A program made the translations under genes and the position numbers. Positions 163 through 14,158 of a stretch of DNA of 64,000 nucleotides are shown here, one piece after another; position 1 is the stretch's first letter; every line of letters begins with the position of its first letter. This stretch comes from Bdellovibrionales bacterium (GTDB lineage: Bacteria; Bdellovibrionota; Bdellovibrionia; Bdellovibrionales; UBA1609), in contig DAIDIG010000003.1 of the NCBI GenBank assembly GCA_027459485.1, positions 248,001 to 312,000 of the forward strand, in the 5' to 3' direction. Below the pieces are notes generated by a model, which had not been told where the DNA came from, did not search any database, and worked only from the letters and a program-made list of their open reading frames with translations.

Positions 163-329
163 ATGGAGGGCCATAACTATGTGCAAGCTTGATAAACAAT
201 TTCGATTCATTATGAGACGATTAACCGCCGATTGTGCTCGCCCATTTGCACAATTCTCTTCAACGCTGTTAAATGTGCTAGGATGTATTCATGTGCGGCG
301 CGCGGCACGCACCACTGGGGGGACGTGAA

Positions 330-632
330 ATGCAAAGAAATAATTCTATTTTTAGCCGACTTCGCCGTTTATTCGTTTACTCGATTTTCGCGGGATTGAT
401 TTGTGGCCTGACTTCCGCGTGCTCAACGTACATTCGCCAAGTTGCCGGCAATAAACCTGCAGCGCCAGTGCAGCAAACAAGCAATCCCATACCTATGAAA
501 ATTACCCCAGGCGGTAAGATCGCTAGCGGATCGCAAGTGATGGCCGATTTTGACATCACACCCACTCAACAGACGGTTTCTGGCACGAAAGTCTCCTTGG
601 TTTTTAGTTTCTATCAAAACAGACCCGAATAG
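330..632 (+). CDS. small predicted lipoprotein
   Basis: The 100-residue protein starts at ATG 330, chosen over the ATG at 291 because it places a short basic N-terminus (RLRRLF) directly before a hydrophobic stretch and a lipobox (LTSAC, Cys at about residue 31). The mature part is about 70 residues and ends in a beta-like segment with no family I recognise. Signal peptidase II processing and membrane anchoring are inferred from the lipobox. It lies just upstream of khpA on the same strand and may share its transcript. Confidence 0.6.
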   Translation: MQRNNSIFSRLRRLFVYSIFAGLICGLTSACSTYIRQVAGNKPAAPVQQTSNPIPMKITPGGKIASGSQVMADFDITPTQQTVSGTKVSLVFSFYQNRPE

Positions 633-663
633 CGTCTAGCCGCTTTTGTTTGGGAGGTGGCGC

Positions 664-936
664 TTGCAAGTCATAGTTAAAAGGGGCGCTGATAACAGCT
701 CAAGTCTCAGAAATCTAATTGAGTTTTTGGCGAAGGCTCTTGTCGATTATCCGGAACAAGTTGAAGTGAAGGAAATTCCCGGAGAACAAACGACGGTTTT
801 CGAGCTACGAGTAGCAAAAGGTGACCTGGGCAAAGTTATCGGCAAGCAAGGCAAAAACGCCCAATCCATGCGCACTATTCTCAATGCGGCTAGCACTAAG
901 ATACAAAAACGAACAGTCCTAGAAATCGTCGAATAA
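664..936 (+). CDS. khpA: KH-domain RNA-binding protein KhpA
   Basis: This 90-residue protein is a single type II KH domain with the RNA-binding GxxG loop in GKVIGKQGKN, followed by the conserved helix (AQSMRTILNAA). KhpA proteins are usually 75-90 residues and pair with KhpB/Jag to bind many RNAs, with roles in cell division and envelope control. The start is TTG at 664: GGAGGTGG at 652-659 ends four bases before it, and the longer ATG frame from 646 has no such site. Its usual neighbours rpsP and rimM are not seen here. It marks the last chromosomal gene before the integrated element. Confidence 0.88.
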   Translation: MQVIVKRGADNSSSLRNLIEFLAKALVDYPEQVEVKEIPGEQTTVFELRVAKGDLGKVIGKQGKNAQSMRTILNAASTKIQKRTVLEIVE

Positions 937-1136
937 GACTTCCGAGCCTTCCCGCCGTCACACGCGCGATCTCAAAATTAGACGCGCCGTGGGTAAAATA
1001 AATAATTTTACTAAGTAAAAAAGTTTTTACCTTTTTGAGTGCGAGATCGATTTTATCGTGTGCTCGCGAAATGGCATAGATTTTGATCATTGGTCTTTTC
1101 TAGCAACTAATTTTTGGTTTGCAGAAAGGATCAAAA

Positions 1137-1478
1137 ATGAAACTTCAACTTCTATCCACTGAAGCCATCGAGACACATTCGCGGGGGCCAAAAAGGCGCC
1201 GAATACGTGCAGCCGATATTTTTAAATCTTGCCCCGCGTGCCATTCAACTGATCTCATCGCGTTCGAAGGCGAAGTGCTCTGCTGTCAATGCCCTTGGGA
1301 TAGTCTTCAGGCAAGCGTTGACACAGGCCTTATGGACTCAGTTTGCGGTCGCCCCGCTCGGCAAGCAAAAAGGCAAGCAAAAAGGCAAACATCAACGACT
1401 GAGAACCCCGCTCTACCCGCTAACAAACCCAATCGGTCCAAAAACATAAATGCCGTTGAGAAAAAAATCACGGCTTAA
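1137..1478 (+). CDS. small zinc-ribbon protein, element-borne
   Basis: The 113-residue protein starts at ATG 1137, with GAAAGGA seven bases upstream. It has a central four-Cys zinc ribbon (CPAC ... CCQC, about residues 32-53) flanked by basic tails (KRRRIRA and a repetitive RQAKRQAKRQ). The ribbon suggests nucleic-acid or protein binding; no family is recognised. It is the first gene of the element and is followed by a second, unrelated zinc-ribbon gene. It may be element regulation or cargo. Confidence 0.6.
   Translation: MKLQLLSTEAIETHSRGPKRRRIRAADIFKSCPACHSTDLIAFEGEVLCCQCPWDSLQASVDTGLMDSVCGRPARQAKRQAKRQTSTTENPALPANKPNRSKNINAVEKKITA
1360..1390 (+). repeat. 12-bp tandem repeat inside the zinc-ribbon gene
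   Basis: About 2.6 copies of GGCAAGCAAAAA stand head to tail. They encode the basic RQAK repeats. Being a multiple of three, copy number could change without breaking the frame. Confidence 0.75.
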
Positions 1479-1500
1479 CAAAACGAAAGGAATAAAATAA

Positions 1501-1710
1501 ATGAATTTTTCAATTTGCCCTCGATGTGGCATCGAAGCTTTCGAGCATTTATCTACGCACTCGCACTGTATTGAGTGTGGATATTCACCACTCGGCGACA
1601 CTGCCGAATGTAAAACGTGGCGACATCTGGAATTTTGCACATCCGACAAATACCCAGGTTTACACGAGCTATGGCCCTGTCATTATCAGTTTCCACGTCG
1701 ACTTTTATGA
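1501..1710 (+). CDS. small zinc-ribbon protein, element-borne
   Basis: This 69-residue protein opens with a rubredoxin-like ribbon (CPRCG ... CIECGYSP, residues 6-30). Further Cys and His residues in the tail may add metal ligands. AAAGGA lies about eight bases before the ATG. The gene sits 22 bases after the preceding zinc-ribbon gene, probably in one transcript. Function unknown; it may be too short for more than binding a partner or nucleic acid. Confidence 0.55.
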   Translation: MNFSICPRCGIEAFEHLSTHSHCIECGYSPLGDTAECKTWRHLEFCTSDKYPGLHELWPCHYQFPRRLL

Positions 1711-1810
1711 GGCCGCTTGATTGCTATGATTTTTATTTATGGAGCATTGGCGAGCTAAAACTCCCGAAAACCCTTGAACCAAACCTTAACTTTTAGAGGA
1801 GAATTCTAAA

Positions 1811-2071
1811 ATGAATGCAAAACCCTTCGACATAATTGTCGCAAAAGAATACCAGACAAAAATTGACGGGAAAACCGTTAAAAGGACCATTTGGAATAGA
1901 GTCGGCTGTGCCTGGCCATCGAGATCCTACGAATCGATTAGCTTTGAGCTCTACCTGATCCCAGGGCAGCGCTATGTGATCCGCCTTAAAGAACGCGAAA
2001 CCGCTGACCTACGAAACGATGACTCAAACACACAAGTGCCAACAACTACCGAACAGACAAATAACCAATAA
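1811..2071 (+). CDS. hypothetical protein, element-borne
   Basis: The 86-residue protein is preceded by a clear AGAGGAG site. The first two thirds read like a small beta-rich fold (alternating hydrophobic residues, ISFELYLIPGQRYVIRL); the tail is a polar Thr/Gln/Asn stretch. This resembles small single-domain proteins seen at the head of conjugation operons, but I recognise no family. It lies 16 bases upstream of the pilin-like gene. Confidence 0.55.
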   Translation: MNAKPFDIIVAKEYQTKIDGKTVKRTIWNRVGCAWPSRSYESISFELYLIPGQRYVIRLKERETADLRNDDSNTQVPTTTEQTNNQ

Positions 2072-2087
2072 ATCGAAAGGACAAAAA

Positions 2088-2360
2088 ATGAACAAACGAA
2101 ATCTATTTTTATTGAGCGCAATTCTTTTTATCTGCCCATTTGCTAACGCCTCGGTTGAATCGTCGCTTATGGGCCTTAAAGACGTGCTTCTCACTTCGAT
2201 TCTGCCGGTCTTTGCCGTTATCGGAATCAGTTTTGCAGCATTTAGCTTTTTTACCGGAAACCCACGAGCCAAAGAACATCTGATGTACGCAATTGCGGGT
2301 GCTGCCATTTGTTTTGGGGCACAATCAATCGTTGATCTTTTAAGTCGGGTGGTGCGATGA
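2088..2360 (+). CDS. virB2: VirB2/TrbC-like pilin subunit
   Basis: A 90-residue protein with a signal peptide (cleavage near ANA-SV, about residue 20) and two further hydrophobic segments separated by a short polar loop (TGNPRAKEHL). This size and topology is typical of VirB2/TrbC prepilins, which form the conjugative pilus. GAAAGG lies upstream of ATG 2088. The stop overlaps the start of the next gene (ATGA at 2357-2360), and the position before VirB3- and VirB4-like genes fits. Assignment is by topology and gene order, not by a conserved motif. Confidence 0.75.
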   Translation: MNKRNLFLLSAILFICPFANASVESSLMGLKDVLLTSILPVFAVIGISFAAFSFFTGNPRAKEHLMYAIAGAAICFGAQSIVDLLSRVVR

Positions 2361-2698
2361 AAACGTGTCCAACAAGTAACATGAACCGCTCCCAATTATG
2401 GGGATTTGAGGTGAGCCACATTGTGATCTCACTTGGCATGCTTTCAGTGTCCGATATTTTTTTAAACATTATCGGCGCTCCACTAATGCTCGCCTGGGGA
2501 TTTGGGCTTCTCACCCTTGCGGGCTTACGATTCGTCTCGCACGGGCAAAAAAACGGGCATCTCGAACTTCTCATGCGGTTCATATTAGAGCCACATATAT
2601 TCTTGGGCCACGGCGGCCGGGTACGAGGTCCAGTAATCCCATTGACTTCGGGGCCAGTAACTTCGTTGACTTTGGCTTCGACTTTGGGGGCACGATGA
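2357..2698 (+). CDS. virB3: VirB3/TrbD-like T4SS membrane protein
   Basis: A 113-residue protein with two closely spaced membrane segments (about residues 20-55) and a longer polar C-terminus. It overlaps the pilin gene and the VirB4 gene by four bases each, so translation is probably coupled. VirB3-type proteins sit in the inner membrane with the VirB4 ATPase and support pilus assembly; in some systems the two are fused. The C-terminal third (Gly/Pro/Ser/Thr-rich) looks poorly conserved. Called from size, membrane pattern and context. Confidence 0.65.
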   Translation: MKTCPTSNMNRSQLWGFEVSHIVISLGMLSVSDIFLNIIGAPLMLAWGFGLLTLAGLRFVSHGQKNGHLELLMRFILEPHIFLGHGGRVRGPVIPLTSGPVTSLTLASTLGAR

Positions 2699-4755
2699 CC
2701 AAGTATTCACTTACAAAACAAGTTCTTGGCACCGAATGGTTAAGTGACGGGGTTGTTACCGCTCAAGACGGCACTCTATTAAAGGCGTTTCAAGTCGAGC
2801 CGCTTACAAGCGGAAATCTCGAGGACGGCTTTAATGGTCCGATCTCCGACAATTTTTTTGCAAAGCTCTCTGAACTTCTCACACGCCTTCCAAGCCATTT
2901 TGATGGCCACGCCATACTTCAACGCCGGCAACTTTCTAATTCCGAAATTGGCGGATTTAAAACAACACTCTACTTTTTCGAAAAAGTTGAAAAGGCCGAA
3001 AGTTATTCCCACATTAATGCGCTACTGACTGAACTTAAAATGGCACCAAAACCGCTCGCGCAAGATTCTTTCGCATTTTTGTTATCTGGCGTATTCGGGA
3101 GCCCCGTCCTGGCCGGCCGATTACCTGATCTCACTTGGGAAAAAGACTCAATCCGCGTCAAAGATCAGGTCATTCGTGCACTGAGCTTAACTGAACTCCC
3201 CCAGGTCACTTGGAAAGGATGCTTTCAGGCAATTTTTGAAGCCCCAAGTGAATTTACATTATCGCTTCGCTTTTTTATACCTGAGCGGACAAGAATAAAG
3301 CGCCAGCTTGAAACCAAACGTCGCGTAAGCCATGCGCTATCAATCACGACCTCGCTTGAAGTTAAAAATATTGAATCTAACTCCGTTCTTCACTCATCAG
3401 AAGAAACTCTAGAGCGAATTCTAATCAACAAAGAAACGCTTTTTGAAATTTCGCTCGGCGTTTTACTCCTCGGCACAAATGCGGACACAATTAGACTTTC
3501 GCACGATCTTGAGCGTGTCGTCGCAGGAATCGGCAATGCCGGCATTTATATCGAGGAGCTTGGGTCTTTACCAGTATTAAGGAGTCATATTCCGGGTAAC
3601 CGTGTGCTCGGCATTCGAAAAATGCCGATCTTAACAGAAAACCTGGCCCACATTTTCCCGCTATTTCACGATTATTCAAGAGCACAAAACGCATCACATC
3701 TCGAACTTCGGTCACGAAGTGGCGAAGTGTCGCACTTAAATTTATTTTCGCGCGAGAATTTAAACTTTAACGCCTTTATTTGCGGAGCTTCGGGATCAGG
3801 TAAATCGTTTTTGATGAATGCAATTTTAACCTCGACGTTGAAAGACGATAAACGCTCAAGACTTTGCATATTTGACGTCGGCGGCTCATATAAGCGCATT
3901 GTCGAATCAAACGGCGGCCAAAGCTTAAGCCTCAGTAGCGCGCAAGCGCGCGCACTCATCGCAAGTTTTGTTCGGATTTTTCCGACCGATGCAAACGGAT
4001 TCTTTCGAACTTTCATCGAAACGCTTTGCGGCTCGGGCAGTCATATTACCCATTCCCACGCTGTCGCAATCGACGATTTGATTCATGAATTGATAGGCGA
4101 ACACCTTAAAATTCGCAGGCTAATAGAGCTTGCCGAAAAGCGACCGGAGCGGTTTTACCATGACATTGCCCACTGGTTAAAACCGCACGTCACATTTGAC
4201 GACGTCGAGGCACGCCCCGATCTCGTTGAAACAATTAAAGGTCAAGTTTCGGCATTTGATTTTAAGGAACTTGATTCCGATCCTGTGTTGCAAAAAACAA
4301 CGATACTACTTCTAACTGAACTTTTGTGGCGTGACCTATCGGCCGGGCGCTATTCGCACACCCTTATAGTATTTGACGAAGTCTGGCGTTTTTTTTCGCA
4401 AAGTAAGTCGTTTTTAGAAGAAATGTACCGCACACTTCGAAAATATAAAGCCGGTATTGTATCCATCACGCAAAGCCTTGCCGACTATGGGGACGAAGCG
4501 TTTGCTAAAATGCTATTTACCAATAGCTATACAAAAATTTTCTTACAAAATGGCGCCGCAGCCGAATATTTGCGAGAAACGTTTGATTTACCGAATTCTG
4601 ATATCGCACGCGCCTTATCTGTTTCATCTAAAAAACCCGATTACTCCGAATTCTTTGTTCTGACTCCGACGATGAGTCAGATCTTTCGACTCTATCCGAC
4701 TGAAGAATTTTACAAACTCGCTAATACCGAAAACATCGCACAAAACCCCAGCTAA
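2695..4755 (+). CDS. virB4: VirB4/TraC-family T4SS ATPase
   Basis: A 686-residue cytoplasmic ATPase that energises pilus biogenesis and transfer. The Walker A motif GASGSGKS is at about residue 364, and the Walker B motif (LIVFDEVW) is at about 560, followed by the arm typical of the family (KYKAGIVSITQS). The N-terminal 350 residues match the less conserved CagE/TrbE/VirB region. Length is somewhat short for VirB4 (usually about 790-850). It overlaps the VirB3-like gene by four bases. This is the firmest marker that the block is a conjugation system. Confidence 0.93.
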   Translation: MTKYSLTKQVLGTEWLSDGVVTAQDGTLLKAFQVEPLTSGNLEDGFNGPISDNFFAKLSELLTRLPSHFDGHAILQRRQLSNSEIGGFKTTLYFFEKVEKAESYSHINALLTELKMAPKPLAQDSFAFLLSGVFGSPVLAGRLPDLTWEKDSIRVKDQVIRALSLTELPQVTWKGCFQAIFEAPSEFTLSLRFFIPERTRIKRQLETKRRVSHALSITTSLEVKNIESNSVLHSSEETLERILINKETLFEISLGVLLLGTNADTIRLSHDLERVVAGIGNAGIYIEELGSLPVLRSHIPGNRVLGIRKMPILTENLAHIFPLFHDYSRAQNASHLELRSRSGEVSHLNLFSRENLNFNAFICGASGSGKSFLMNAILTSTLKDDKRSRLCIFDVGGSYKRIVESNGGQSLSLSSAQARALIASFVRIFPTDANGFFRTFIETLCGSGSHITHSHAVAIDDLIHELIGEHLKIRRLIELAEKRPERFYHDIAHWLKPHVTFDDVEARPDLVETIKGQVSAFDFKELDSDPVLQKTTILLLTELLWRDLSAGRYSHTLIVFDEVWRFFSQSKSFLEEMYRTLRKYKAGIVSITQSLADYGDEAFAKMLFTNSYTKIFLQNGAAAEYLRETFDLPNSDIARALSVSSKKPDYSEFFVLTPTMSQIFRLYPTEEFYKLANTENIAQNPS

Positions 4756-4799
4756 TCTGCCTTTCCCGCACGCTTTTAAAATTTTATTGGGAGACTTTG

Positions 4800-5477
4800 A
4801 TGAAAAAATCAGTTTTAATTTTTTTCTGCATTTTTGCCTTTACACCAAGTGCGCATGCGGATTGGTTCGGTGCTGATCTTGCTTACCTCGCGCAAATTGT
4901 TCAAAACACGCTTGGCACACTTAACGCTCTAAGCGAACAAAACGAGTACTGGAGCGACGATCTCGCCGGCATCAATGACAAAATTAGTCGCCTAAAAACA
5001 ATTGAAAATTTAGTCGAGCCGTCCTCCTGGAGCAAATGGCGGAATCCGAGCGAAGCTCTGAAGCGACTTAAACTCATCTACGACACCATGCCCGAAGAAT
5101 ATCACAATAAAAAGTCTGACCTCATTGAAAACGAGATTTCAGACGCCATGACACTTGTCGCGCAAGTTAGCCCCAATGCGAGGAGTGCATATGAGTCAGG
5201 GCGTGAACTTGAACGCCGTGGGGAATACGTCTCACCTGGAGTTGCCGAGAAGCTAACGGCTTCAGGTATTGGCTCGATGCTTGAGGTGCAGTCGCAAACC
5301 ATGATCCTTGAAAGCCATATCACAAGTCTACTTGCCCAGATGTTAGCAAATGCAAACGAAAAAGAAACGAGGTCTGTTGTATCTCGCGGTAGAGCCTTCG
5401 TGGACGTTTCCAAGAGTTTGAATCCACATAAATCTAGTTTTTCGCGCCAAGTTCTAAATTTTCGGGCGGTGCTATAA
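4800..5477 (+). CDS. VirB5/TrbJ-like exported T4SS protein
   Basis: The 225-residue protein has a clear signal peptide (cleavage near AHA-DW, about residue 21) and a long helical mature region. This fits VirB5/TrbJ proteins, minor pilus or periplasmic components. ATG 4800 is chosen over the TTG three bases earlier, with GGGAG just upstream. Its stop is coupled to the next gene (TAATG at 5475-5479). The family is poorly conserved, so the call rests on signal peptide, helix content and position between VirB4 and VirB6. Confidence 0.7.
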   Translation: MKKSVLIFFCIFAFTPSAHADWFGADLAYLAQIVQNTLGTLNALSEQNEYWSDDLAGINDKISRLKTIENLVEPSSWSKWRNPSEALKRLKLIYDTMPEEYHNKKSDLIENEISDAMTLVAQVSPNARSAYESGRELERRGEYVSPGVAEKLTASGIGSMLEVQSQTMILESHITSLLAQMLANANEKETRSVVSRGRAFVDVSKSLNPHKSSFSRQVLNFRAVL

Positions 5478-6409
5478 TGACTTACCCATCACACAGCACC
5501 CCGAGCATTGGTCCGAAAGTGGCGCACGCCGCCCTTCCAACAATTGAAAACTACGATAAGCTTGTCCCCATCGCGCACGCTCTTTATCAACACACAAGTC
5601 ATCTCGCCTGGCAGATGCTATTGCCACTATTTTTACTCTCGGTTGCAATCGGATATTCAACTGAACTTGGTGTCACGGGCTCGGTCATTGTTCGATTAAA
5701 ACGCCTTGTGCTCGTCATGATTTTACTTGTGGCGTTTCCGACACTAGCCGAACTTTGCCAAAACGTCGGCGTTGAGATTGCAAAATCGATCGACAATATG
5801 GCGGGCATTGACATGATACTTCGCGCAGCCGCCGCTAAAGCGCACGAATATTCTTTTAATTTATCAAGCCTTCTCAACATGGGTAATGACCTCGTGATGG
5901 CACTTTTTGTGACCGGCACCTATATCCTTCTTGTTTTAGCCCGCTATTTTCTCCTCGCTTTTCAGCATTTTTTTTGGCTCGTGCTCGTCACAACTGGCCC
6001 GTTTTTAATTCTTGCTACCCTTTTTGAATCGGCCTCTGGTGTGACAAGGGCACTTTTTAAATCAATGATTCAGGTGTCATGTTGGCCGATCATTTGGGCC
6101 ATACTTTCAGCGTTTTTAAAAGCATTGCCGTTTTCGCACACCTATTACATGGACCCCAATCAGATCACGGTCATTACACTTAATCTCATTATTGCAATTG
6201 CGCTCTTATTTTCGCCGTTTCTTGTTTCGCACTTCACAGAAGGTGTCATTCACACAGGCGCAGGGGAGCATTTACGCCGTCACGCCGTGCGTGCCGCAAC
6301 GGTTGGCGGAGGAAAAGTCTTATTCGTTACAAAATCGGTTGCATCAGCTGCCACTCGTTCAACCCGCGATTTTAATCCCGCTCGCTTTAAACCCGGATCA
6401 AAACAATAA
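5477..6409 (+). CDS. virB6: VirB6/TrbL-like polytopic T4SS protein
   Basis: A 310-residue polytopic membrane protein with about six hydrophobic segments between residues 40 and 255 and a basic C-terminal tail. VirB6/TrbL proteins form the inner-membrane part of the channel and contact the DNA substrate. Order (after VirB5, before VirB9/VirB10) and topology support the call. It starts at the base where the VirB5-like gene stops, implying coupled translation. Confidence 0.8.
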   Translation: MTYPSHSTPSIGPKVAHAALPTIENYDKLVPIAHALYQHTSHLAWQMLLPLFLLSVAIGYSTELGVTGSVIVRLKRLVLVMILLVAFPTLAELCQNVGVEIAKSIDNMAGIDMILRAAAAKAHEYSFNLSSLLNMGNDLVMALFVTGTYILLVLARYFLLAFQHFFWLVLVTTGPFLILATLFESASGVTRALFKSMIQVSCWPIIWAILSAFLKALPFSHTYYMDPNQITVITLNLIIAIALLFSPFLVSHFTEGVIHTGAGEHLRRHAVRAATVGGGKVLFVTKSVASAATRSTRDFNPARFKPGSKQ

Positions 6410-6422
6410 GAGGAAGGTAAAA

Positions 6423-7106
6423 ATGAAAAAGATAATATTGTTCATAGGTCTCATTTTTGAGTCGAATTTGGCGTTTTCACTTTCGCCGGCATCGTTTCCG
6501 GTTTTTTTAAAAGAAGGTTTTAGCACTGTTCTTGAATTTTCCGCGCCGCCGACGGAGGTTGTCTTGGGCGATCCAAGACACTTTATGGTCCAGAAACTTC
6601 AAGACGCGCTTGTCGTAAAGCCGCTTGTACCAAACGCAAGTTCAGACATGTTTGTCTACTTCCGCGCTCTCGAGCCCAGGCTTTTCGTACTCACGGCTTC
6701 AAACAAAGTCACACCAACGTTTTTTAAACGCTTTGGGACTGAGCTCGCGTTTCAAGCACCGCCCCAGGTCTCGGAAATAAAAAAGCGTACTCGGTTTTTA
6801 TATCGCGAGTCCCTTCGAGTTCTATCGGCACGCTTTAGTTCAAAAAAGGACTATTTAACCGTCGCGGCTGAAATTTCGGCCGGGTCCAACCAAATGCTTA
6901 AACCCGCCTGGACGCGAGCGCATCTTTTATTCCACGGCAAATCGATTCTGCCACTTAAACTTTGGTCAGAACGCCGAGAAATTCAAAAGGACTCGCGTGT
7001 GAAGTGCCGATTTATATTTTTAAAGCCAAATCTTTCGCGCCATTTGTGGCAGGTCTTACTCGTCATTCCGCTTTCGAGAAATCGAACCTTGTCGGCGCGT
7101 CTCTAG
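6423..7106 (+). CDS. VirB9/TrbG-like T4SS protein, possibly frameshifted
   Basis: From ATG 6423 (AGGAAGG upstream) the protein has a signal peptide and a beta-rich domain reminiscent of VirB9/TrbG N-domains (EFSAPPTEVVLGDPRHF, then KPLVPNASSDMFVYFRA). Such proteins build the outer core ring with VirB7 and VirB10. The last 45 residues are Arg/Leu-rich and unlike the rest. An overlapping frame at 6962-7162 reads more like protein (VPIYIFKAKSFAPFVAGL), suggesting a frameshift around 6,960-7,000. At 227 residues it is also short for VirB9. The domain call is moderate, the frameshift tentative. Confidence 0.6.
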   Translation: MKKIILFIGLIFESNLAFSLSPASFPVFLKEGFSTVLEFSAPPTEVVLGDPRHFMVQKLQDALVVKPLVPNASSDMFVYFRALEPRLFVLTASNKVTPTFFKRFGTELAFQAPPQVSEIKKRTRFLYRESLRVLSARFSSKKDYLTVAAEISAGSNQMLKPAWTRAHLLFHGKSILPLKLWSERREIQKDSRVKCRFIFLKPNLSRHLWQVLLVIPLSRNRTLSARL

Positions 7107-7127
7107 AACAATTGAAGGGTAAAGAAT

Positions 7128-7967
7128 ATGAAAAATCCAAATTCAAAATTAGAGCGAGCTAAGAAAAAGCTCACAGCCCGCTGGCAAGGGGCTGACATTC
7201 CAGGTTCCGCGCCACGATTTCAGCTATCGCTATTTTCTAAAGATGTTTTTACGTACTTCGCATTTCCGATTCTATGCATAGTCGGATTTAAATCCTGCGA
7301 GCTTTTAATTCACAAGGTGCGCGCCCACCACGAATCAACAACCAGTGATTCGACTTCCGAGCAAGAAAATTACAATTCGCCGCAGTCACAAATAATTAGC
7401 TTCGTTAATTCGCATCCGCGTTCGCGCTATTATGGAATCGCTCGGCGATCTCCTGGCACACTGGTTAAGGTAAGGCTACTAAATGTCGTTGATACTTACG
7501 CAAACGCCCCTGTTGATGTCGAAATTATTGACTCGGGCCTTGGCAAAAACCTCATTGGTTCAACAATTCTTGGAACCGCATCGGGCGAGGACGCTTATCG
7601 TCGAGTCAATATTGAATTTAATATGGTTCGAAGAGCAAATAATCCGGGGAGCGCAATACCGATAAAAGCTCGCGCCCTTAGCCTTGACGGCACGCTTGGG
7701 CTTGCGGCTCAAAAGAAAGACGGATTTTTTGCTAGATCAGCCCTTGATGCCGAAAGTTCAGGCGACAACATGGCTCAAAGTAAAATTGGTAATTCCGGAA
7801 CACTTGACGGCATGATTGCTCGCGCACTGGCGTCAGGGCTTCTTCAGGAGTTTGGTTCAGATAATCGGTCAGAGCAAAATCATTCACAACTTTTGACACT
7901 TAAACCAATGACTGAATTCTATGTTGAACTGACAAGCTATTTCCCGGCCTCAGGCGGCGCAGAGTGA
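7128..7967 (+). CDS. virB10: VirB10/TrbI-like T4SS core protein
   Basis: A 279-residue protein with one membrane segment near the N-terminus (about residues 35-58), a polar linker, and a C-terminal beta-barrel domain typical of VirB10/TrbI (GTLVKVRLLN, NLIGSTILGTA, then NIEFNMVR). VirB10 spans both membranes and gates the channel. It is shorter than usual (about 380-450), mainly through a short periplasmic linker. It follows the VirB9-like gene and precedes the coupling protein. Confidence 0.82.
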   Translation: MKNPNSKLERAKKKLTARWQGADIPGSAPRFQLSLFSKDVFTYFAFPILCIVGFKSCELLIHKVRAHHESTTSDSTSEQENYNSPQSQIISFVNSHPRSRYYGIARRSPGTLVKVRLLNVVDTYANAPVDVEIIDSGLGKNLIGSTILGTASGEDAYRRVNIEFNMVRRANNPGSAIPIKARALSLDGTLGLAAQKKDGFFARSALDAESSGDNMAQSKIGNSGTLDGMIARALASGLLQEFGSDNRSEQNHSQLLTLKPMTEFYVELTSYFPASGGAE

Positions 7968-8021
7968 CAGCGTAATGACCTGCGTTGTGATGGCCCAATA
8001 ATCGAAGGAGAAAAAACGAAA

Positions 8022-9608
8022 ATGAACACTCAAAATACAAATGACACTCACCAAAACCGAAGTCTTGGGATGCTTTTAACCGGCATAATGGGTCTTGTGG
8101 CTTATGAATTTTATTCGTCGCTTGATACGGCCGAGAAAATCTTATTTTGGCTTATGATGCCAGCAGTCGGCTTTCCGTTGGGCGTACTTCTTTTTGATCG
8201 ATATTCTAAATGGGGAAAAGCAAAAAGAAAGCGAATCGAAACGATAAAAGAAATTCCGCCGGAGCTACTTTTATCATCGCCTACGAGTATTTACTTAGGC
8301 CATGATTTGAATCTAGATATTGATGTTTATTTGCCAGACGAAGTTCGTTGCCGCCACGTTCACCTTGTTGGCGGCTCTGGATTTGGCAAAACCAACACAC
8401 TTCAAAATTTTATCAAGCAAGATTCAGATCGTGGACTTGGCATGATCATTCTTGATGGCAAAGGTGAGATTTCTTTTTTAAATTGGCTAAAAAGTGTCGT
8501 GCCAAAAAACCGGCTTTGCGTATTTGATCTAAGTGATGAAAAAAGCATGGGTTATAATCCGCTCTCGGACGGCTCGCCGCTTGAAGCCGCCCAAAGGCTT
8601 TACTCGTCTCTCACCTGGAGTGAGCCGTTTTACGCCGCGAAAGCGCGGGCAGCGCTTCAAACTATTTTTCAAAACCATTTTAAACTAAAAAAGAAGAATC
8701 CTTCGATCAAGGAATTGGCCGAATATCTTGATACTCCACAAAGTTACAGTTCGATTGCGACATCGCCCAGTTATCCGCCAAAGCTTGCAACGGAAGATTA
8801 TATGGGAATCGCCGGGCTTCGCGATCAAATAAATTCGCTTTGCACGGGGCACTTGGATAATATTTTATCTCCGAGTGATCGCTCAGAAATTAACTTGGGG
8901 TCAACACAAGACGGTAAAGTCTTATACTTTAGACTTCAAAGTTCACTTGCAACGCAGATTGCGTCAAATACTGGAAAGCTTCTTATTAACCACATCAATT
9001 TTTTGGCCGGAACGGCGCATAGAAACGGGCAGGCAAACAAAGCCAAACTCGTTCCAACCTATTTTGACGAGTTTGCGACGTTTGTGTGCCCCGAATTTGC
9101 AGACCTTATTTCAAAAGCCAGGTCGGCGGGCTACGCCCTTCATTTTTCCCACCAAAGTAAAGGGGATCTTGAGGACGTATCAAAAGGCTTTCTCGGGCGA
9201 ATTACCGATAACTCCGCGACCAAAATCATAATGCATATAAATGATCCCGATTCAGCCGATTTTTTTGCTAAATCCTTTGGCACATCCAAATACCAAAAAG
9301 TCACCCAGCGAATTACAAATGCCAAAGACGCCGATGACGCCGAACTTGTTGGTGAGGGGTCGAGTCGCGAAGCCCATAGATATAAAACATCTCCTGATGA
9401 ACTGAAATCACACCCGACAGGAGTGGGTTCGGTTCTTATTGCCCACGGCAAAGACACGGCTCATGGAGCATCTGATTTTTTTAAAATTAGGTTTCCGCCA
9501 ATACCAAAAGAGGTCGAAGAATCTAAGTCTCAAACTGAGACAAATGCTAACCTAAAGTCCATTAATAACTCAGACATTATTAAAATTGATATTTATGATA
9601 AGATATAG
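8022..9608 (+). CDS. VirD4/TraD-family conjugative coupling protein
   Basis: A 528-residue DNA-translocating ATPase that brings the substrate to the channel. Two N-terminal membrane helices (about residues 15-70) precede Walker A (GGSGFGKT, about 117) and Walker B (PTYFDEFA, about 347). The C-terminal motor region carries the conserved HQSKGDLE and DNSATKIIMH segments. GAAGGAG stands upstream of the start. A coupling protein argues for conjugation rather than only protein secretion. It is followed directly by the mobile mystery pair. Confidence 0.9.
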   Translation: MNTQNTNDTHQNRSLGMLLTGIMGLVAYEFYSSLDTAEKILFWLMMPAVGFPLGVLLFDRYSKWGKAKRKRIETIKEIPPELLLSSPTSIYLGHDLNLDIDVYLPDEVRCRHVHLVGGSGFGKTNTLQNFIKQDSDRGLGMIILDGKGEISFLNWLKSVVPKNRLCVFDLSDEKSMGYNPLSDGSPLEAAQRLYSSLTWSEPFYAAKARAALQTIFQNHFKLKKKNPSIKELAEYLDTPQSYSSIATSPSYPPKLATEDYMGIAGLRDQINSLCTGHLDNILSPSDRSEINLGSTQDGKVLYFRLQSSLATQIASNTGKLLINHINFLAGTAHRNGQANKAKLVPTYFDEFATFVCPEFADLISKARSAGYALHFSHQSKGDLEDVSKGFLGRITDNSATKIIMHINDPDSADFFAKSFGTSKYQKVTQRITNAKDADDAELVGEGSSREAHRYKTSPDELKSHPTGVGSVLIAHGKDTAHGASDFFKIRFPPIPKEVEESKSQTETNANLKSINNSDIIKIDIYDKI

Positions 9609-9645
9609 CTGTTCAAGAAACATGATGAATGATAAGTTAAATATT

Positions 9646-10149
9646 ATGAAAACAAGTAAAAGGAACCTTCTATTACAGAGGCAAATTATTGAGAAAAAAG
9701 TCAAGCCGTGGGTTCGTTTGCGTGATAGTTCACCCCCGAAGTCTGGCTGGATAAGGGCAATAAGGGGCGCATTAGGGATGAATACGCGCCAACTCGCAGA
9801 GCGTGTCGGCGTCAATCAGCCTGCCATTACACAACTCGAAAATCGCGAGGCGACCAAAAAAGTGACCCTTGACCTTTTAGACCGAGTCGCATCGGCAATG
9901 GACTGTAAACTCGTTTATGCAATCGTGCCAAATTCGCCATATAAAACCTTAGACGAAATTGTTGATGAGCATGCCAGCCGGTCTGCCGCCAAGTTGATTC
10001 GATCGGTGGGTCACTCGATGCAGCTCGAAGCACAAGGGCTTGATAACGACGATATCAAGCAACAAACAATGCGACTGACACACGAACTAAAATCAAAAAT
10101 TGACTCTCGAATATGGGACGAGCGTTCAAAAAAGAAAGGAGGCAAATAA
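9646..10149 (+). CDS. mobile mystery protein A (XRE-type regulator)
   Basis: The 167-residue protein has an XRE helix-turn-helix (MNTRQLAERVGVNQPAITQL, about residues 45-64) between a basic N-terminus and a helical tail. This architecture, directly followed by a Fic protein, matches mobile mystery protein A (TIGR02612), known to occur with protein B on mobile elements. The start could also be ATG 9622 or 9625; 9646 is chosen because the family begins with the basic helix. A role as DNA-binding repressor or antidote of the pair is inference. Confidence 0.85.
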   Translation: MKTSKRNLLLQRQIIEKKVKPWVRLRDSSPPKSGWIRAIRGALGMNTRQLAERVGVNQPAITQLENREATKKVTLDLLDRVASAMDCKLVYAIVPNSPYKTLDEIVDEHASRSAAKLIRSVGHSMQLEAQGLDNDDIKQQTMRLTHELKSKIDSRIWDERSKKKGGK

Positions 10150-10152
10150 ACA

Positions 10153-10749
10153 ATGGCGGATTTAAAATTTATATATCCGCCAGGTGCGACCCCGCTTGAT
10201 CCCGATGAATCGGCTGGCCTAATACCTGACTACGTTTCAACTCAAGGTGAGCTCAACGTGCTAGAGCAAGAAAACATTGTCGAAGCGCACGCTTGGGCAA
10301 GAAAGAAAGTGCATGGCGATATTTTAAACGTTTCGTTTGCCCTCGAACTTCACAAACAAATGTTTGGGCGCGTTTGGAAATGGGCAGGCCGACCGCGCGT
10401 TTCAAATAAAAACATCGGCGTCAGCCACGAACAGATTAACGCGAAGCTCTCGGCACTCCTTAAAGACACGGACCACTGGATAAAAAATCAAACGTATAAC
10501 TGGGATGAGATCGGCGCACGATTTCATCATCGACTCGTATCTATCCATGTCTTTTCAAACGGCAACGGCCGTCATGCTCGTCTTATGACCGATATTCTGC
10601 TTGAAAAATACCGCCAATCTCCGTTTACCTGGGGTGCCACTCAGAGTTCACTTGAAGTCCAAAGCACCGTTCGAAAAAACTATATTTCCGCTTTAAAATC
10701 CGCCGACCAGGGTGATTTAAAAGAACTTATCCGCTTTGTCAGAAGCTAA
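10153..10749 (+). CDS. mobile mystery protein B (Fic family)
   Basis: A 198-residue Fic/DOC protein with the active-site motif HVFSNGNGRHAR at residues 132-143, complete with the catalytic His and the anion-binding GNGR. Fic proteins usually transfer AMP or similar groups to hydroxyl side chains. The partner gene ends three bases upstream, giving the TIGR02612/TIGR02613 pair. I see no obvious inhibitory (S/T)xxxE(G/N) helix within this protein. The pair resembles a toxin-antitoxin module, but its function is not settled. Confidence 0.88.
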   Translation: MADLKFIYPPGATPLDPDESAGLIPDYVSTQGELNVLEQENIVEAHAWARKKVHGDILNVSFALELHKQMFGRVWKWAGRPRVSNKNIGVSHEQINAKLSALLKDTDHWIKNQTYNWDEIGARFHHRLVSIHVFSNGNGRHARLMTDILLEKYRQSPFTWGATQSSLEVQSTVRKNYISALKSADQGDLKELIRFVRS

Positions 10750-10750
10750 A

Positions 10751-10768
10751 GTCGGCTGTGCAGCCGAC
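10751..10768 (+). terminator. short hairpin after the Fic gene, possible terminator
   Basis: GTCGGCT and AGCCGAC form a perfect 7-bp stem around a 4-base loop directly after the fic stop codon. No T-run follows, so a Rho-independent terminator is only weakly supported; an mRNA-end stabiliser is equally possible. Confidence 0.35.
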
Positions 10769-10870
10769 GTAAGCACACAACTTTAAATCCAGGCTTTCCC
10801 GCTCACAAATTGCCAAAAAATCAAATGGCGCGAAGTTGCAATTGCTGCGCGCTCGACAAGGAGAAAATCT

Positions 10871-11200
10871 ATGAAAACACCGTATCGAATCGTATTCGCC
10901 GCATTCCTACTTTCAATAACCGCTTGTTCAACTTTCAATCGATCTGTCCTACTTGGCGGCGCACTTGGTGCAACTGCCGTCGCATCTGCCGTCTCAGCTG
11001 GTGAACATTCAGCAGGTATCACGCCGAAATCAAATGATATTACAAGCGCCGCGCTCGTCGGTCTCGGGCTTGGTGTCATTACTGCGTCGATTATTCAAAA
11101 TGCCAACTCGCAAGACGACGAAAGTAAGCAATCTGGTCCAAAGATGTACTTTGGCGACTTGCCGCCAAGCCCATTTGTGTTCCCTCGGTCGCAAAACTAA
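10871..11200 (+). CDS. small lipoprotein, element-borne
   Basis: A 109-residue protein with signal sequence and lipobox (ITAC, Cys at about residue 17), followed by a Gly/Ala-rich hydrophobic segment and a short polar C-terminus. AAGGAG precedes the start. In conjugation loci, small lipoproteins often act as VirB7-like stabilisers or entry-exclusion proteins; nothing in the sequence decides between these. It stands apart from the virB block, after the Fic gene. Confidence 0.6.
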   Translation: MKTPYRIVFAAFLLSITACSTFNRSVLLGGALGATAVASAVSAGEHSAGITPKSNDITSAALVGLGLGVITASIIQNANSQDDESKQSGPKMYFGDLPPSPFVFPRSQN

Positions 11201-11212
11201 GGAGGATTGAAA

Positions 11213-11539
11213 GTGAAAAACCGAATACAGTTTACGCTCACTGATGAAACGCTAAAAATCGTAGAAGATACGTTCAAAGAGGTGACCCAAAACTTTAAAA
11301 CTGGCTCGATCAACTATTCTGATGTCATAAACGAAATGATTCTCACCTCAAGGGTTGACGTCAAATCGCTTCAACATAAGAAGACAAATTTGCGTCGCTC
11401 GCTTCGCGTGATGGCAAAAGATCCAAGTATTGATTATGAGGCCGCTATCGAATTGCTAAACAAAATGAAGCCAAAGCCGGCCAAGAATAGCTCGAAAGCA
11501 AAAGTCGAGACGGAGGCGCAAAGTGAAAGCACCGAATAG
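11213..11539 (+). CDS. small accessory DNA-binding-like protein
   Basis: The 108-residue protein starts at GTG 11213, seven bases after GGAGG (11201-11205); a TTG at 11207 is too close to that site. The N-terminus alternates like a ribbon-helix-helix strand (NRIQFTLTDETLKIV), followed by helices and a Lys-rich tail. That layout is common in mobilisation accessory proteins that sit on oriT, but no family is confirmed. Its end overlaps the start of the next gene by 17 bases, implying a shared operon. Confidence 0.5.
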   Translation: MKNRIQFTLTDETLKIVEDTFKEVTQNFKTGSINYSDVINEMILTSRVDVKSLQHKKTNLRRSLRVMAKDPSIDYEAAIELLNKMKPKPAKNSSKAKVETEAQSESTE

Positions 11540-12407
11540 GCCGTTTGGCCGTGGTCCACAAATCCTGTTAACGCTTGCTGAACATGGGCCGCTTTCGGCT
11601 CGCGGACTCACCAGAATGCTCACTCCCACCATTCAACGAAAAAAGCTAAACGAGGCGTTGGGCCGTCTTCTTAGGCGGAATTTGATAATCAAGCTACACG
11701 CCAGGCTATTTGGCGATGGCGGCATCTTTTACCAGATCAACCAAAACCCAAAAGTGTGGGGTGAAGTTTCGCTAATGACTGGCCTTGCAACAAAGTCACT
11801 TTTTCAGCCGCAGTTCCGATCCGTTGAGCTTATCCATTCAGAAGCCTGCGCCATTTGGGCGACGGCGCTTGAACGGCTAAACCCGCACTCGATTTTGCTT
11901 CGCGATTTTTCGCTTCGCAACTCACGGATGGCCAGGCAAATCCTACTTGAGGTCGATAATGACATCGATTTGATTCCAGATTTGTTGATTGCAGTTCTAT
12001 CTGACGACAGAAAGACGCTTGTGTCAGTTGCCGTCGAGATCGAGAGATACATGAAAACGGATTTGCGAACACTAATAAAGCTTAACCGCTTTGCTGCAGG
12101 GTCACGCCTTGATGGAGTGATTTGGCTTTGCGATAACGACGGGATTTCTGAGCGGCTAAAGCGGCTATATAACACTCGCGTGAAGGATCGTGCGCACAGG
12201 ATAAATAACTACGGGAGTAACTTCATGCTGTTTCAAGATGAATGTTTTCCGGCTTCGATACCGACCTTTAGTTTGCAAAATGCCGAAAACAAATCCGTCG
12301 ATTTTAACTTGTGGATTAGGGAACTTCAGTCGAAGAATTTGCATGAGCGCTTTGATGCCAAATTCAATGACCGTGGTGCGGACCACGGACGTTTACAATA
12401 CGCGTAA
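11523..12407 (+). CDS. winged-helix protein with PD-(D/E)xK-like core, possible replication/relaxation protein
   Basis: The 294-residue protein opens with a winged-helix region (ILLTLAEHGPLSARGLTRML, residues 14-33). A middle domain follows with IPD at about 158 and VAVEIERYMKT about 20 residues later, as in restriction-like PD-(D/E)xK nucleases. This arrangement resembles the Replic_Relax family of mobile elements. GTG 11523 follows GGAGG with good spacing. Because no classical relaxase is seen and a large palindrome lies just downstream, it is the best candidate for the DNA-processing protein of this element. The family call is from memory of patterns and uncertain. Confidence 0.5.
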   Translation: MKAPNRPFGRGPQILLTLAEHGPLSARGLTRMLTPTIQRKKLNEALGRLLRRNLIIKLHARLFGDGGIFYQINQNPKVWGEVSLMTGLATKSLFQPQFRSVELIHSEACAIWATALERLNPHSILLRDFSLRNSRMARQILLEVDNDIDLIPDLLIAVLSDDRKTLVSVAVEIERYMKTDLRTLIKLNRFAAGSRLDGVIWLCDNDGISERLKRLYNTRVKDRAHRINNYGSNFMLFQDECFPASIPTFSLQNAENKSVDFNLWIRELQSKNLHERFDAKFNDRGADHGRLQYA

Positions 12408-12455
12408 ATCTGCTAGTCCGGAAGAAAACTAAAAGAAGTTTAGATGTTTAACCAC

Positions 12456-12586
12456 TCCCGCCAGTCCGCCAGCTTCCCCTCTGAAGCTCCGTGACCCCTC
12501 CCTACCTACATTACTAAAGTAATGTAGCATTTCATGCAGCGGTAGAAAGGGGTCACGGAGACAGGGAAGCTGGCGGACTGGCGGGA
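12456..12586. repeat. large nested palindrome, candidate oriT or replication site
   Basis: Perfect 23-bp arms at 12456-12478 and 12564-12586 enclose perfect 13-bp arms at 12487-12499 and 12548-12560. Inside, a 10-bp hairpin with an AA loop lies at 12506-12527. The asymmetric loop continues with about 20 unpaired bases. The outer arms contain GCC/GGC steps (CCGCCAG...). The position between the putative DNA-processing gene and the excisionase gene fits an origin of transfer or a regulated recombination site. No T-run makes a simple terminator unlikely. Confidence 0.85.
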
Positions 12587-12609
12587 AAACCAAAAAGAGG
12601 AATAAAAAA

Positions 12610-12894
12610 ATGAAGCAGTTAGTCCATACAAAATCATTTGTGTGTCCTGCTGAGTCAGCTATAAGATCAAACCCGGTTAGTCAGCTCTTTGAAAAAAAAA
12701 TAGCTCGTGAACATGCTTTACTGGAGAAACCGAGATGGTTCACAACCAGTGAAGCAGCTCAATATTTAAGGGTCTCGGTCAATAGTATAAAAACTATGGT
12801 GTACCGAGGTAAGATTCAGGTTTATAAGCTCGGAAGGCGTAATCGCTTTCTGCGCGATGACCTCGAGCGGCTGATCGTACTTCCAAAACATTAG
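12610..12894 (+). CDS. excisionase-like HTH protein
   Basis: The 94-residue protein carries a MerR-like/HTH_17 helix-turn-helix at residues 40-90 (FTTSEAAQYLRVSVNSIKTM, then GRRNRFLRDDL), as in excisionases and small element regulators. It has a roughly 38-residue polar N-terminal extension. AAGAGG lies upstream. It ends ten bases before the integrase gene, the classical xis-int order, so a role in directing excision or regulating int is likely. Confidence 0.8.
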   Translation: MKQLVHTKSFVCPAESAIRSNPVSQLFEKKIAREHALLEKPRWFTTSEAAQYLRVSVNSIKTMVYRGKIQVYKLGRRNRFLRDDLERLIVLPKH

Positions 12895-12904
12895 GAGGTA
12901 GAAA

Positions 12905-14158
12905 ATGCCGCAAAAACAAGTCTTATATAAAGGAATAAAAAAGCTCGTCGTCACAGTAGCCGTATCGTGCAAGGATCATCCCTCCGGACGATTCCAGCTC
13001 AAACGGACGTATGATAATATCGACGTTAATTCTCCGAAGGCAAATTCGCTTGAACGCGAACTTCTTCGCGCGGCGGAAAGGCAAAAGGCGTTGCGCGAAC
13101 ATCAGGGCAAAACATGGGAAGTTTTACTGAATTTGTACGGCGACCATACCAATACGCTAGTCCGCAACGGTGAATGGTGCCAGAGCCCTCAAACCTTCGA
13201 TGAATCACTGCGGTCAATGTATAAATGGACGAAGCCTTGGTTTGATCTCATCGCGGCTCAAATCAGCGCGTATGATGTGACAAGGCTACTCCATAACATG
13301 AAGGACGAAGGTTGCGCTGATGTGACTTTGCAAAAAATGCGAGCCAATATCAAAAAGGTATTCGAGTTCGGTTTTTTGTATGAGCACGTGCGCGGCATAA
13401 AGCAAAGTCCGACGACTGGCGTGACAATCGCCAGCCGCCGCCGAATGCGGACTGAAATTTTACGCGACGACGAGATCGTAAAACTCCTCTCCTACGCTAA
13501 GGAATACGAACCGACTTGGTATTTTATTTGGGCATTTGCAGTGTATACAGGTTGCCGAAATGGCGAGCTTTACGCACTAAAATGGTCAGATATAAATTTT
13601 GAAGATCGTATGATCACAGTCCAACGGTCCTATAATAAAAAATATAAAGTCGAAAAATCGACCAAGACTGGCGAGTGGAGGCACGTTTCGATTTGCCCAC
13701 CACTTTGGGAAATCGTACAGGAGTTAAAACGGATGCACGACCACGATGTCGAACGCGGCGAATGTAACCACGTCGGCTACGTTCTTCCGCGCCCCGGTTC
13801 CTGGCAAAATGGCGAACAAGCCAGTAAGCTTCGTAAGTTTTGTGAGGAGATCGGCATTACGCCCGTTTGTTTTCACACCCTTCGAGCGTGCTTTGCCACG
13901 GAACTTCTAAAGCGTGGCGTTGCCGTTCCAAGCGTGATGCGGGCCGGCGGTTGGACAAGCGTAAAGACGATGATGCACTACGTGCGTTTATCAGGAATGG
14001 ATGACAAGGGGATCACCGATCCACTTGATTATCGTTCACCTGATCCGGTCGAAGCGAACAAGAAGTTAATGGCCGCAGTCGGAGAAAAGTTTGAGGGCGT
14101 TCACGAAGCTGTGGTAATTCCGCTTATGAGCAGAAAATTGCCAAGTAGCTTGAGGTAG
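12905..14158 (+). CDS. int: tyrosine-recombinase integrase
   Basis: A 417-residue integrase. The N-terminal half holds an AP2-like arm and a SAM-like core-binding domain; the catalytic domain follows from about residue 195. Active-site residues are visible: Arg218 (TGCRNGEL), a Lys in the beta hairpin (STKTGEWR), His324 and Arg327 (HTLRA), Trp350 in the second His position (AGGWTS), and the nucleophile Tyr359 (MHYVR). The enzyme should be active. GGAGG stands before the ATG. It is the last gene of the element, next to the presumed attachment site. Confidence 0.93.
   Translation: MPQKQVLYKGIKKLVVTVAVSCKDHPSGRFQLKRTYDNIDVNSPKANSLERELLRAAERQKALREHQGKTWEVLLNLYGDHTNTLVRNGEWCQSPQTFDESLRSMYKWTKPWFDLIAAQISAYDVTRLLHNMKDEGCADVTLQKMRANIKKVFEFGFLYEHVRGIKQSPTTGVTIASRRRMRTEILRDDEIVKLLSYAKEYEPTWYFIWAFAVYTGCRNGELYALKWSDINFEDRMITVQRSYNKKYKVEKSTKTGEWRHVSICPPLWEIVQELKRMHDHDVERGECNHVGYVLPRPGSWQNGEQASKLRKFCEEIGITPVCFHTLRACFATELLKRGVAVPSVMRAGGWTSVKTMMHYVRLSGMDDKGITDPLDYRSPDPVEANKKLMAAVGEKFEGVHEAVVIPLMSRKLPSSLR

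Follow-up and report, generated by a model that had tools for sequence, protein, structure and literature searches.

Relaxases of the HUH type cut next to a hairpin, in single-stranded DNA, and remain covalently bonded to the resulting end. MOBC is a little-studied class of relaxases, which the accessible part of a review describes as the restriction-endonuclease, PD-(D/E)XK class; there the active site of TraX is given as confirmed by mutagenesis, a covalent intermediate as not observed for MOBC, and the recruitment and religation steps as unexplained (PMC12857230). The same text has TraX binding repeats that lie 70–120 bp from nic (PMC12857230).

Four kinds of described system come close to the locus studied here. 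First, the CloDF13-type MobC (NF041423, PF13814) has a winged helix followed by PD...ExE...K...R in the same order as in our protein and adjoins a coupling protein, and the CloDF13-type oriT region carries a nested repeat with CTGACCACCC/GGGTGGTCAG arms. Second, TraX/Orf8 of the Enterococcus plasmids pAD1/pAM373, which come from another phylum, features ADF...FEIE...K, and pAM373 has an intergenic repeat with TTCCTGACCA/TGGTCAGGAA. Third, the endonucleases BsaWI, PaqCI, Nt.BspD6I and BamHI share the fold of the C-terminal domain. Fourth, there are IMEs and islands with an oriT and no relaxase (iOriT); such oriT-only mobilizable elements form a described class in the accessible parts of two sources (PMC11389934, PMC5704250).

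We analyzed a stretch of 64,000 nucleotides from a Bdellovibrionales bacterium, called the window below. Its ORF at 11523–12407 is best explained as coding for the MOBC-type relaxase of an integrative and conjugative element (ICE), whose candidate oriT is the hairpin at 12456–12586 directly downstream; we give this reading a probability of roughly 90%. The features of the element are as follows.

2019–2360, + strand: VirB2/TrbC-like pilin (Pfam)
2695–4755, + strand: VirB4/TraC-like ATPase (Pfam/NCBIfam)
8022–9608, + strand: type IV coupling protein, VirD4/TraD-like (Pfam/NCBIfam)
11207–11539, + strand: small relaxosome accessory protein, predicted to bind DNA (iterated local HMM)
11523–12407, + strand: predicted MOBC-type relaxase of 294 aa with a winged helix and a PD-(D/E)xK domain (homology, fold models, residue conservation)
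11550–11738, + strand: winged-helix domain, residues 10–72 (AlphaFold2 model, PDB matches)
11820–12191, + strand: PD-(D/E)xK core, residues 100–223 (models, fold searches)
11979–12056, + strand: predicted active site, with D153 at 11979–11981, E172 at 12036–12038, E174 at 12042–12044 and K178 at 12054–12056 (conservation)
12456–12586, no strand assigned: candidate oriT, a nested inverted repeat with outer arms 12456–12478 and 12564–12586
12487–12560, no strand assigned: inner hairpin CTCCGTGACCCCT / AGGGGTCACGGAG, with arms 12487–12499 / 12548–12560
12551/12552, + strand: predicted nic, AGGG/GTCACGG (by analogy with CloDF13 GGGTG/GTCGGG)
12610–12894, + strand: excisionase, HTH_17 (Pfam/NCBIfam)
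12905–14158, + strand: tyrosine integrase (Pfam/NCBIfam)

The relaxase ORF, which starts with GTG, thus lies between the T4SS/coupling-protein block and xis/int, and the conjugation cassette that an initial annotation had placed around it is borne out by the VirB4-like, VirD4/TraD-like, pilin, excisionase and integrase genes. The accessory ORF, which had also been pointed out there, overlaps the start of the relaxase ORF. It has no significant Pfam match. An iterated local HMM seeded with it and its paralogue recovered 41 relatives when run on the 60 fetched loci, and those whose place was compared lie beside mobC or just beyond the hairpin. The genome of the bacterium (2.75 Mb) appears to contain four related ICE-like modules, each with a MobC-like gene and a hairpin: one in the window, and the others on contigs C1 (~460–472 kb), C3 (~32–39 kb) and C17. 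Coupling-protein and VirB4 genes were seen in three of the four, and the C1 copy was matched through DNA similarity. Two further observations concern the genes inside the element: a 'mobile mystery protein' A/B pair (HTH and Fic domain) occupies 9586–10749, between the coupling protein and the relaxase, and a small lipoprotein-like ORF at 10871–11200 is conserved in the paralogous ICE immediately before the accessory gene.

The nested palindrome reported in the initial annotation is real and far beyond chance: its outer arms are 100% paired, and its DNA fold has an energy of −60.8 kcal/mol against −21.9 ± 3.3 for shuffled sequences (z −11.7). A hairpin with arms of at least 13 nt was found within 350 nt downstream of 16 of the 19 homologous genes (that of the window and 18 others); the remaining three comprise two genes that run off the contig (L007, L035) and one with a mismatched copy (L036). 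These copies covary strongly and share a common plan, with an outer CCCGCC/GGCGGG, then CCCC/GGGG, and then CTCCNTGACCACT ... AGTGGTCANGGAG flanking a variable loop. At one locus (L013), the hairpin persists beside a gene for a degenerate protein; either recent decay or use in trans would be consistent with this.

We then built a covariance model (R1) from 15 hairpins of relaxase homologs, with no protein information used. It had matches in 58 of 140 genomes from the order and in 94 of 324 from the phylum. Of the 40 best places outside the training set, 38 were fetched, and two places in the bacterium's own genome brought the total of new ones to 40. A MobC-like gene (local HMM, E ≤ 4 × 10−4) on the same strand ends 27–389 nt upstream of the hairpin at 28 of these 40. 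At L149 (genome G069), the layout is reversed, with the hairpin preceding mobC, which starts 127 nt downstream, and the coupling protein. A MobC-like gene is missing beside 11 of the 40 hairpins, of which four lie at the edge of a contig. A coupling protein, which MOBC elements of the described kind encode alongside the relaxase and which the window also has, is found nearby at 26 of the 40 places, with VirB4 within 7 kb at 13. All four R1 places in the bacterium's own genome adjoin MobC-like genes. By our estimate, chance would produce such gene–hairpin adjacency at far below 1% of places, as no listed genome has more than seven MobC-like matches.

The hairpin also resembles a known kind of transfer origin. 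When R1 was run on ten MOBC loci (180,733 bases), it gave exactly one match at E ≤ 10 (L050, 1266–1411; E 4.6 × 10−6), which is the oriT region that precedes mobB in a CloDF13-type module, with its nested repeat and GGGTGGTC core; none was found at that threshold in the nine other loci, including the CloDF13 record and pAM373. The nic of CloDF13, reportedly treated by Nunez and de la Cruz in 2001, we take to be GGGTG/GTCGGG, and the CloDF13 record has these letters a single time, within the matching arm. Given this match to an oriT region that contains such a nic, we consider the hairpin a candidate oriT with a predicted nic at 12551/12552. The arrangement differs in that the oriT of CloDF13-type plasmids, which are mobilizable, precedes mobB, whereas the window hairpin lies downstream of the relaxase gene in an ICE.

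Of 56 hairpins examined by script, 52 yielded a perfect stem whose right arm contains the core (for L142, the outer stem was picked). The core reads GTGGTC in 36 of these stems and GGGGTC in 11, but stems were chosen for having TGAC or GACC in their left arm, so that its presence is partly by construction. The predicted nic in those stems has 3–6 pairs on its loop side and 4–11 on its outer side. Intergenic repeats with GACCA/TGGTC arms recur in the corresponding gaps of four plasmid loci (L156, L157, L158, L159) and beside the pAM373 relaxase, though the gap of the MOBC plasmid L160 has no such repeat. A ranking of all pentamers in 47 gap repeats of seven plasmids puts GACCA/TGGTC first by number of plasmids (6/7); the word itself had been looked for because of the hairpin. 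As a side observation, mobC is unannotated in the CloDF13 record (NC_002119.1) and broken by apparent frameshifts, with intact relatives in other plasmids.

The position of the hairpin just upstream of xis/int, in the window and in several relatives, raises the alternative that it is an attP of the integrase or a recombination-control site and that the protein is its accessory rather than a relaxase. This alternative could also draw on the seven hairpins that lack mobC within the stretch available (L120, L121, L129, L132, L138, L146, L153), all of which lie upstream of recombinase genes, tyrosine or serine. Yet these enzymes belong to two unrelated classes: the recombinase is a large serine recombinase at the three loci tested with Pfam (L121, L129, L138), as it is downstream of three hairpins with mobC present (L125, L126, L151), while the window has a tyrosine integrase. 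Moreover, a search flanking the element found no direct repeats marking an att site, and a search of the relatives for empty integration sites resolved none. Taken with the likeness to the CloDF13-type oriT region, this makes the attP alternative very unlikely in our estimate. On the reading of the hairpin as a candidate oriT, the seven loci without mobC would be hitch-hikers or remnants. L146 keeps the accessory, xis and int genes and is 97.9% identical to the ICE at L148 over 2269 nt, because of which it may be an ICE remnant. The other six are candidate oriT-only mobilizable elements; they resemble the iOriT elements in combining a hairpin and a recombinase with no mobC, and differ in that some of the hairpin loci may be ICE remnants and that their mobilization is a prediction.

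The hairpin might instead act as RNA: lying between the mob genes and xis, it could be a structured leader or a terminator. Its pattern of covariation is indeed what would also be expected of an RNA: in an alignment of 15 rows (A5), 93.7% of the cells pair, 22 of the 32 pairs have changed on both sides, and the covariation score of 0.423 exceeds that of all 500 shuffles (0.142) and of slid alignments (at most 0.103). However, the 18 pairs of helix 3 alternate between G-C and A-T with no G-U at all, and the few G-U cells of the alignment lie in the outer helices. Rfam has no family above threshold for the hairpin, only microRNA models under their gathering scores, and the arms correspond to a plasmid oriT region. 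We therefore regard the RNA alternative as highly improbable, though the oriT hairpin may in addition form a structure in a transcript.

Turning to the protein, the winged helix named in the initial annotation is recovered as residues 10–72 of a full-length AlphaFold2 model (mean pLDDT 83.8, pTM 0.82), with PDB matches to MarR/ArsR/PadR-type folds. As these winged helices filled most of the list that Foldseek and VIA-align returned for the whole chain, the C-terminal domain was modeled separately (mean pLDDT 84.1). This model matches restriction and nicking endonucleases, namely BsaWI (Z 8.5, rmsd 4.3, 159 aligned), PaqCI (Z 7.8, rmsd 3.8, 128 aligned), BstEII (Z 7.4, rmsd 3.6, 134 aligned) and the nickase Nt.BspD6I (Z 7.1, rmsd 5.0, 136 aligned), along with a Holliday resolvase (Z 6.8, rmsd 3.7, 100 aligned). 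The single Z values are middling and the Foldseek E-values modest (best 8.2 × 10−3); the weight of the predicted fold comes from one fold class making up most of the list. The models thus point to a winged helix followed by a PD-(D/E)xK-type domain, as in MOBC relaxases, and the window gene differs from the restriction and nicking endonucleases in its setting within a conjugation cassette with an oriT-like site.

The IPD...VEIE..K pattern noticed earlier is present as LIPDLLIAVLSDDRKTLVSVAVEIERYMK and constitutes the predicted active-site motif; the ExE stands in place of ExK, as in BamHI. The conservation of its acidic and lysine residues, proposed at the outset as a check, holds well in an alignment of 16 rows that includes the window protein (A1; identity down to about 26%): D153, E174 and K178 are each kept in 15 and E172 in 14. 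The exceptions are L013, which has no catalytic pattern (PS/DxD/Y), and L003, with N at E172. In a C-terminal alignment of 22 rows, with L013 left out, H105, P152, D153, E174, K178 and R182 are present in all. A loose PD..ExE..K pattern is common, matching 43 of the 258 ORFs of 240–340 aa in the fetched loci (the MobC-like genes themselves counted), and so we relied on the HMM and position rather than on the bare motif. By its predicted fold and conserved residues, the protein would hydrolyze DNA as a metal-dependent PD-(D/E)xK nuclease and could nick it. That it is a winged-helix transcription factor using a nuclease fold for binding only, as its winged helix, its operon position and the motif-less L013 homolog might suggest, is hardly credible when D, E, E and K are kept at these frequencies across such divergence, the same letters are invariant in eight MOBC relaxases, and a Pfam scan of the 19 ORFs of 291–14158 shows no other relaxase in the cassette.

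Relatives of the protein were found in 14 of 147 genomes, its own included, by whole-genome search, and its own genome has a paralog that is 54% identical; tblastn against plasmids and one scan of genome contigs with the window protein gave no match. Its assignment to MOBC rests on profile comparisons: hhalign of A1 against eight CloDF13-type and related MobC proteins from as many plasmid loci (A2) aligned them in full length and in the same domain order (Prob 97, E 1.3 × 10−10, 186 columns), with the window protein only 16% identical to MobC over the aligned columns, and the pAM373 relaxase alone aligned at E 2.8 × 10−6 over 190 columns. The initial annotation had set Replic_Relax and PD-(D/E)xK folds side by side as comparisons for its relaxase-like enzyme. 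Here the two coincide, because Pfam Replic_Relax (PF13814) includes both CloDF13-type MobC and the pAM373 relaxase.

No Pfam or NCBIfam model reaches its cut-off with the window protein, and no HUH family of Pfam is listed for it. The NF041423 model (MobC subfamily) matches residues 168–218 with 13.4 bits against a cut-off of 200 (15.4 bits for the paralog), and we therefore do not place the protein in that subfamily. Against PF13814, the window protein is not listed at E ≤ 1, nor the paralog at E ≤ 0.1; of the bridging relatives, L040 passes the gathering cut-off of 25.3 bits with 27.1, and L039 falls short with 21.8. Given the hhalign links, the Replic_Relax membership of the known relaxases and the class drawn by the review, we see the protein as a MOBC-type relaxase that is divergent and falls outside the curated model of the MobC subfamily, and the PD-(D/E)xK-type relaxase-like identity first suggested for it is supported by both the C-terminal fold and the profile alignment. 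Separately, a fifth winged-helix/PDxxxExE protein is encoded in the same genome (contig C2, 115401–118820); it is above the Replic_Relax cut-off and has no R1 hairpin. The Pfam family MobC (PF05713) is a relaxosome accessory. The accessible part of one paper appears to equate it with the MOBC relaxase (PMC11104534).

In the transfer scheme that we favor, the winged helix and the accessory protein would bind the hairpin oriT, with the latter helping the relaxosome to assemble. The PD-(D/E)xK nuclease would then hydrolyze one strand at the predicted nic, within the stem, and the VirD4-like protein would couple the relaxosome to the T4SS and deliver the strand. If it is the + strand that is cut, transfer of the ICE would lead into xis/int, and the mob and T4SS genes would enter last. 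When the two cut ends were co-folded, the stem re-formed with the nick flush, at −56.4 kcal/mol against −58.3 uncut, these energies being rough as the script requested DNA energies if available. A nic predicted inside the stem and the flush co-fold suggest a splint: the intact left arm of the transferred strand might bring both ends into contact by pairing with them, and, with an ordinary 3′-OH and 5′-phosphate at the cut, a host ligase could seal them with no covalent relaxase–DNA bond. The generalization that MOBC transfer origins are self-splinting hairpins, a design common to MOBC elements of Bdellovibrionota, Enterobacterales and Enterococcus and to their relaxase-less hitch-hikers, is tentative, and we hold it to be rather doubtful. 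If true, it would answer how MOBC elements recircularize, a question that the accessible part of the review leaves open (PMC12857230).

Our searches of an open-access library yielded no paper joining 'MOBC relaxases', oriT and inverted repeat; Bdellovibrionota and relaxase appeared only as single mentions of each term, and MobC with Bdellovibrio matched only work on a phage. The present ICE family has the predicted relaxase, the accessory and the candidate oriT side by side, and the GACCA/TGGTC signature of its nested hairpin is also found in MOBC plasmids of other phyla. Sequence searches with this signature might locate MOBC origins and their hitch-hikers. Finally, at 646–936 the window has a KhpA-like KH-domain ORF with 77% DNA identity to a copy ~17 kb upstream; more partial copies are found on contigs C9 and C1, and these copies possibly represent a duplication of the integration target.
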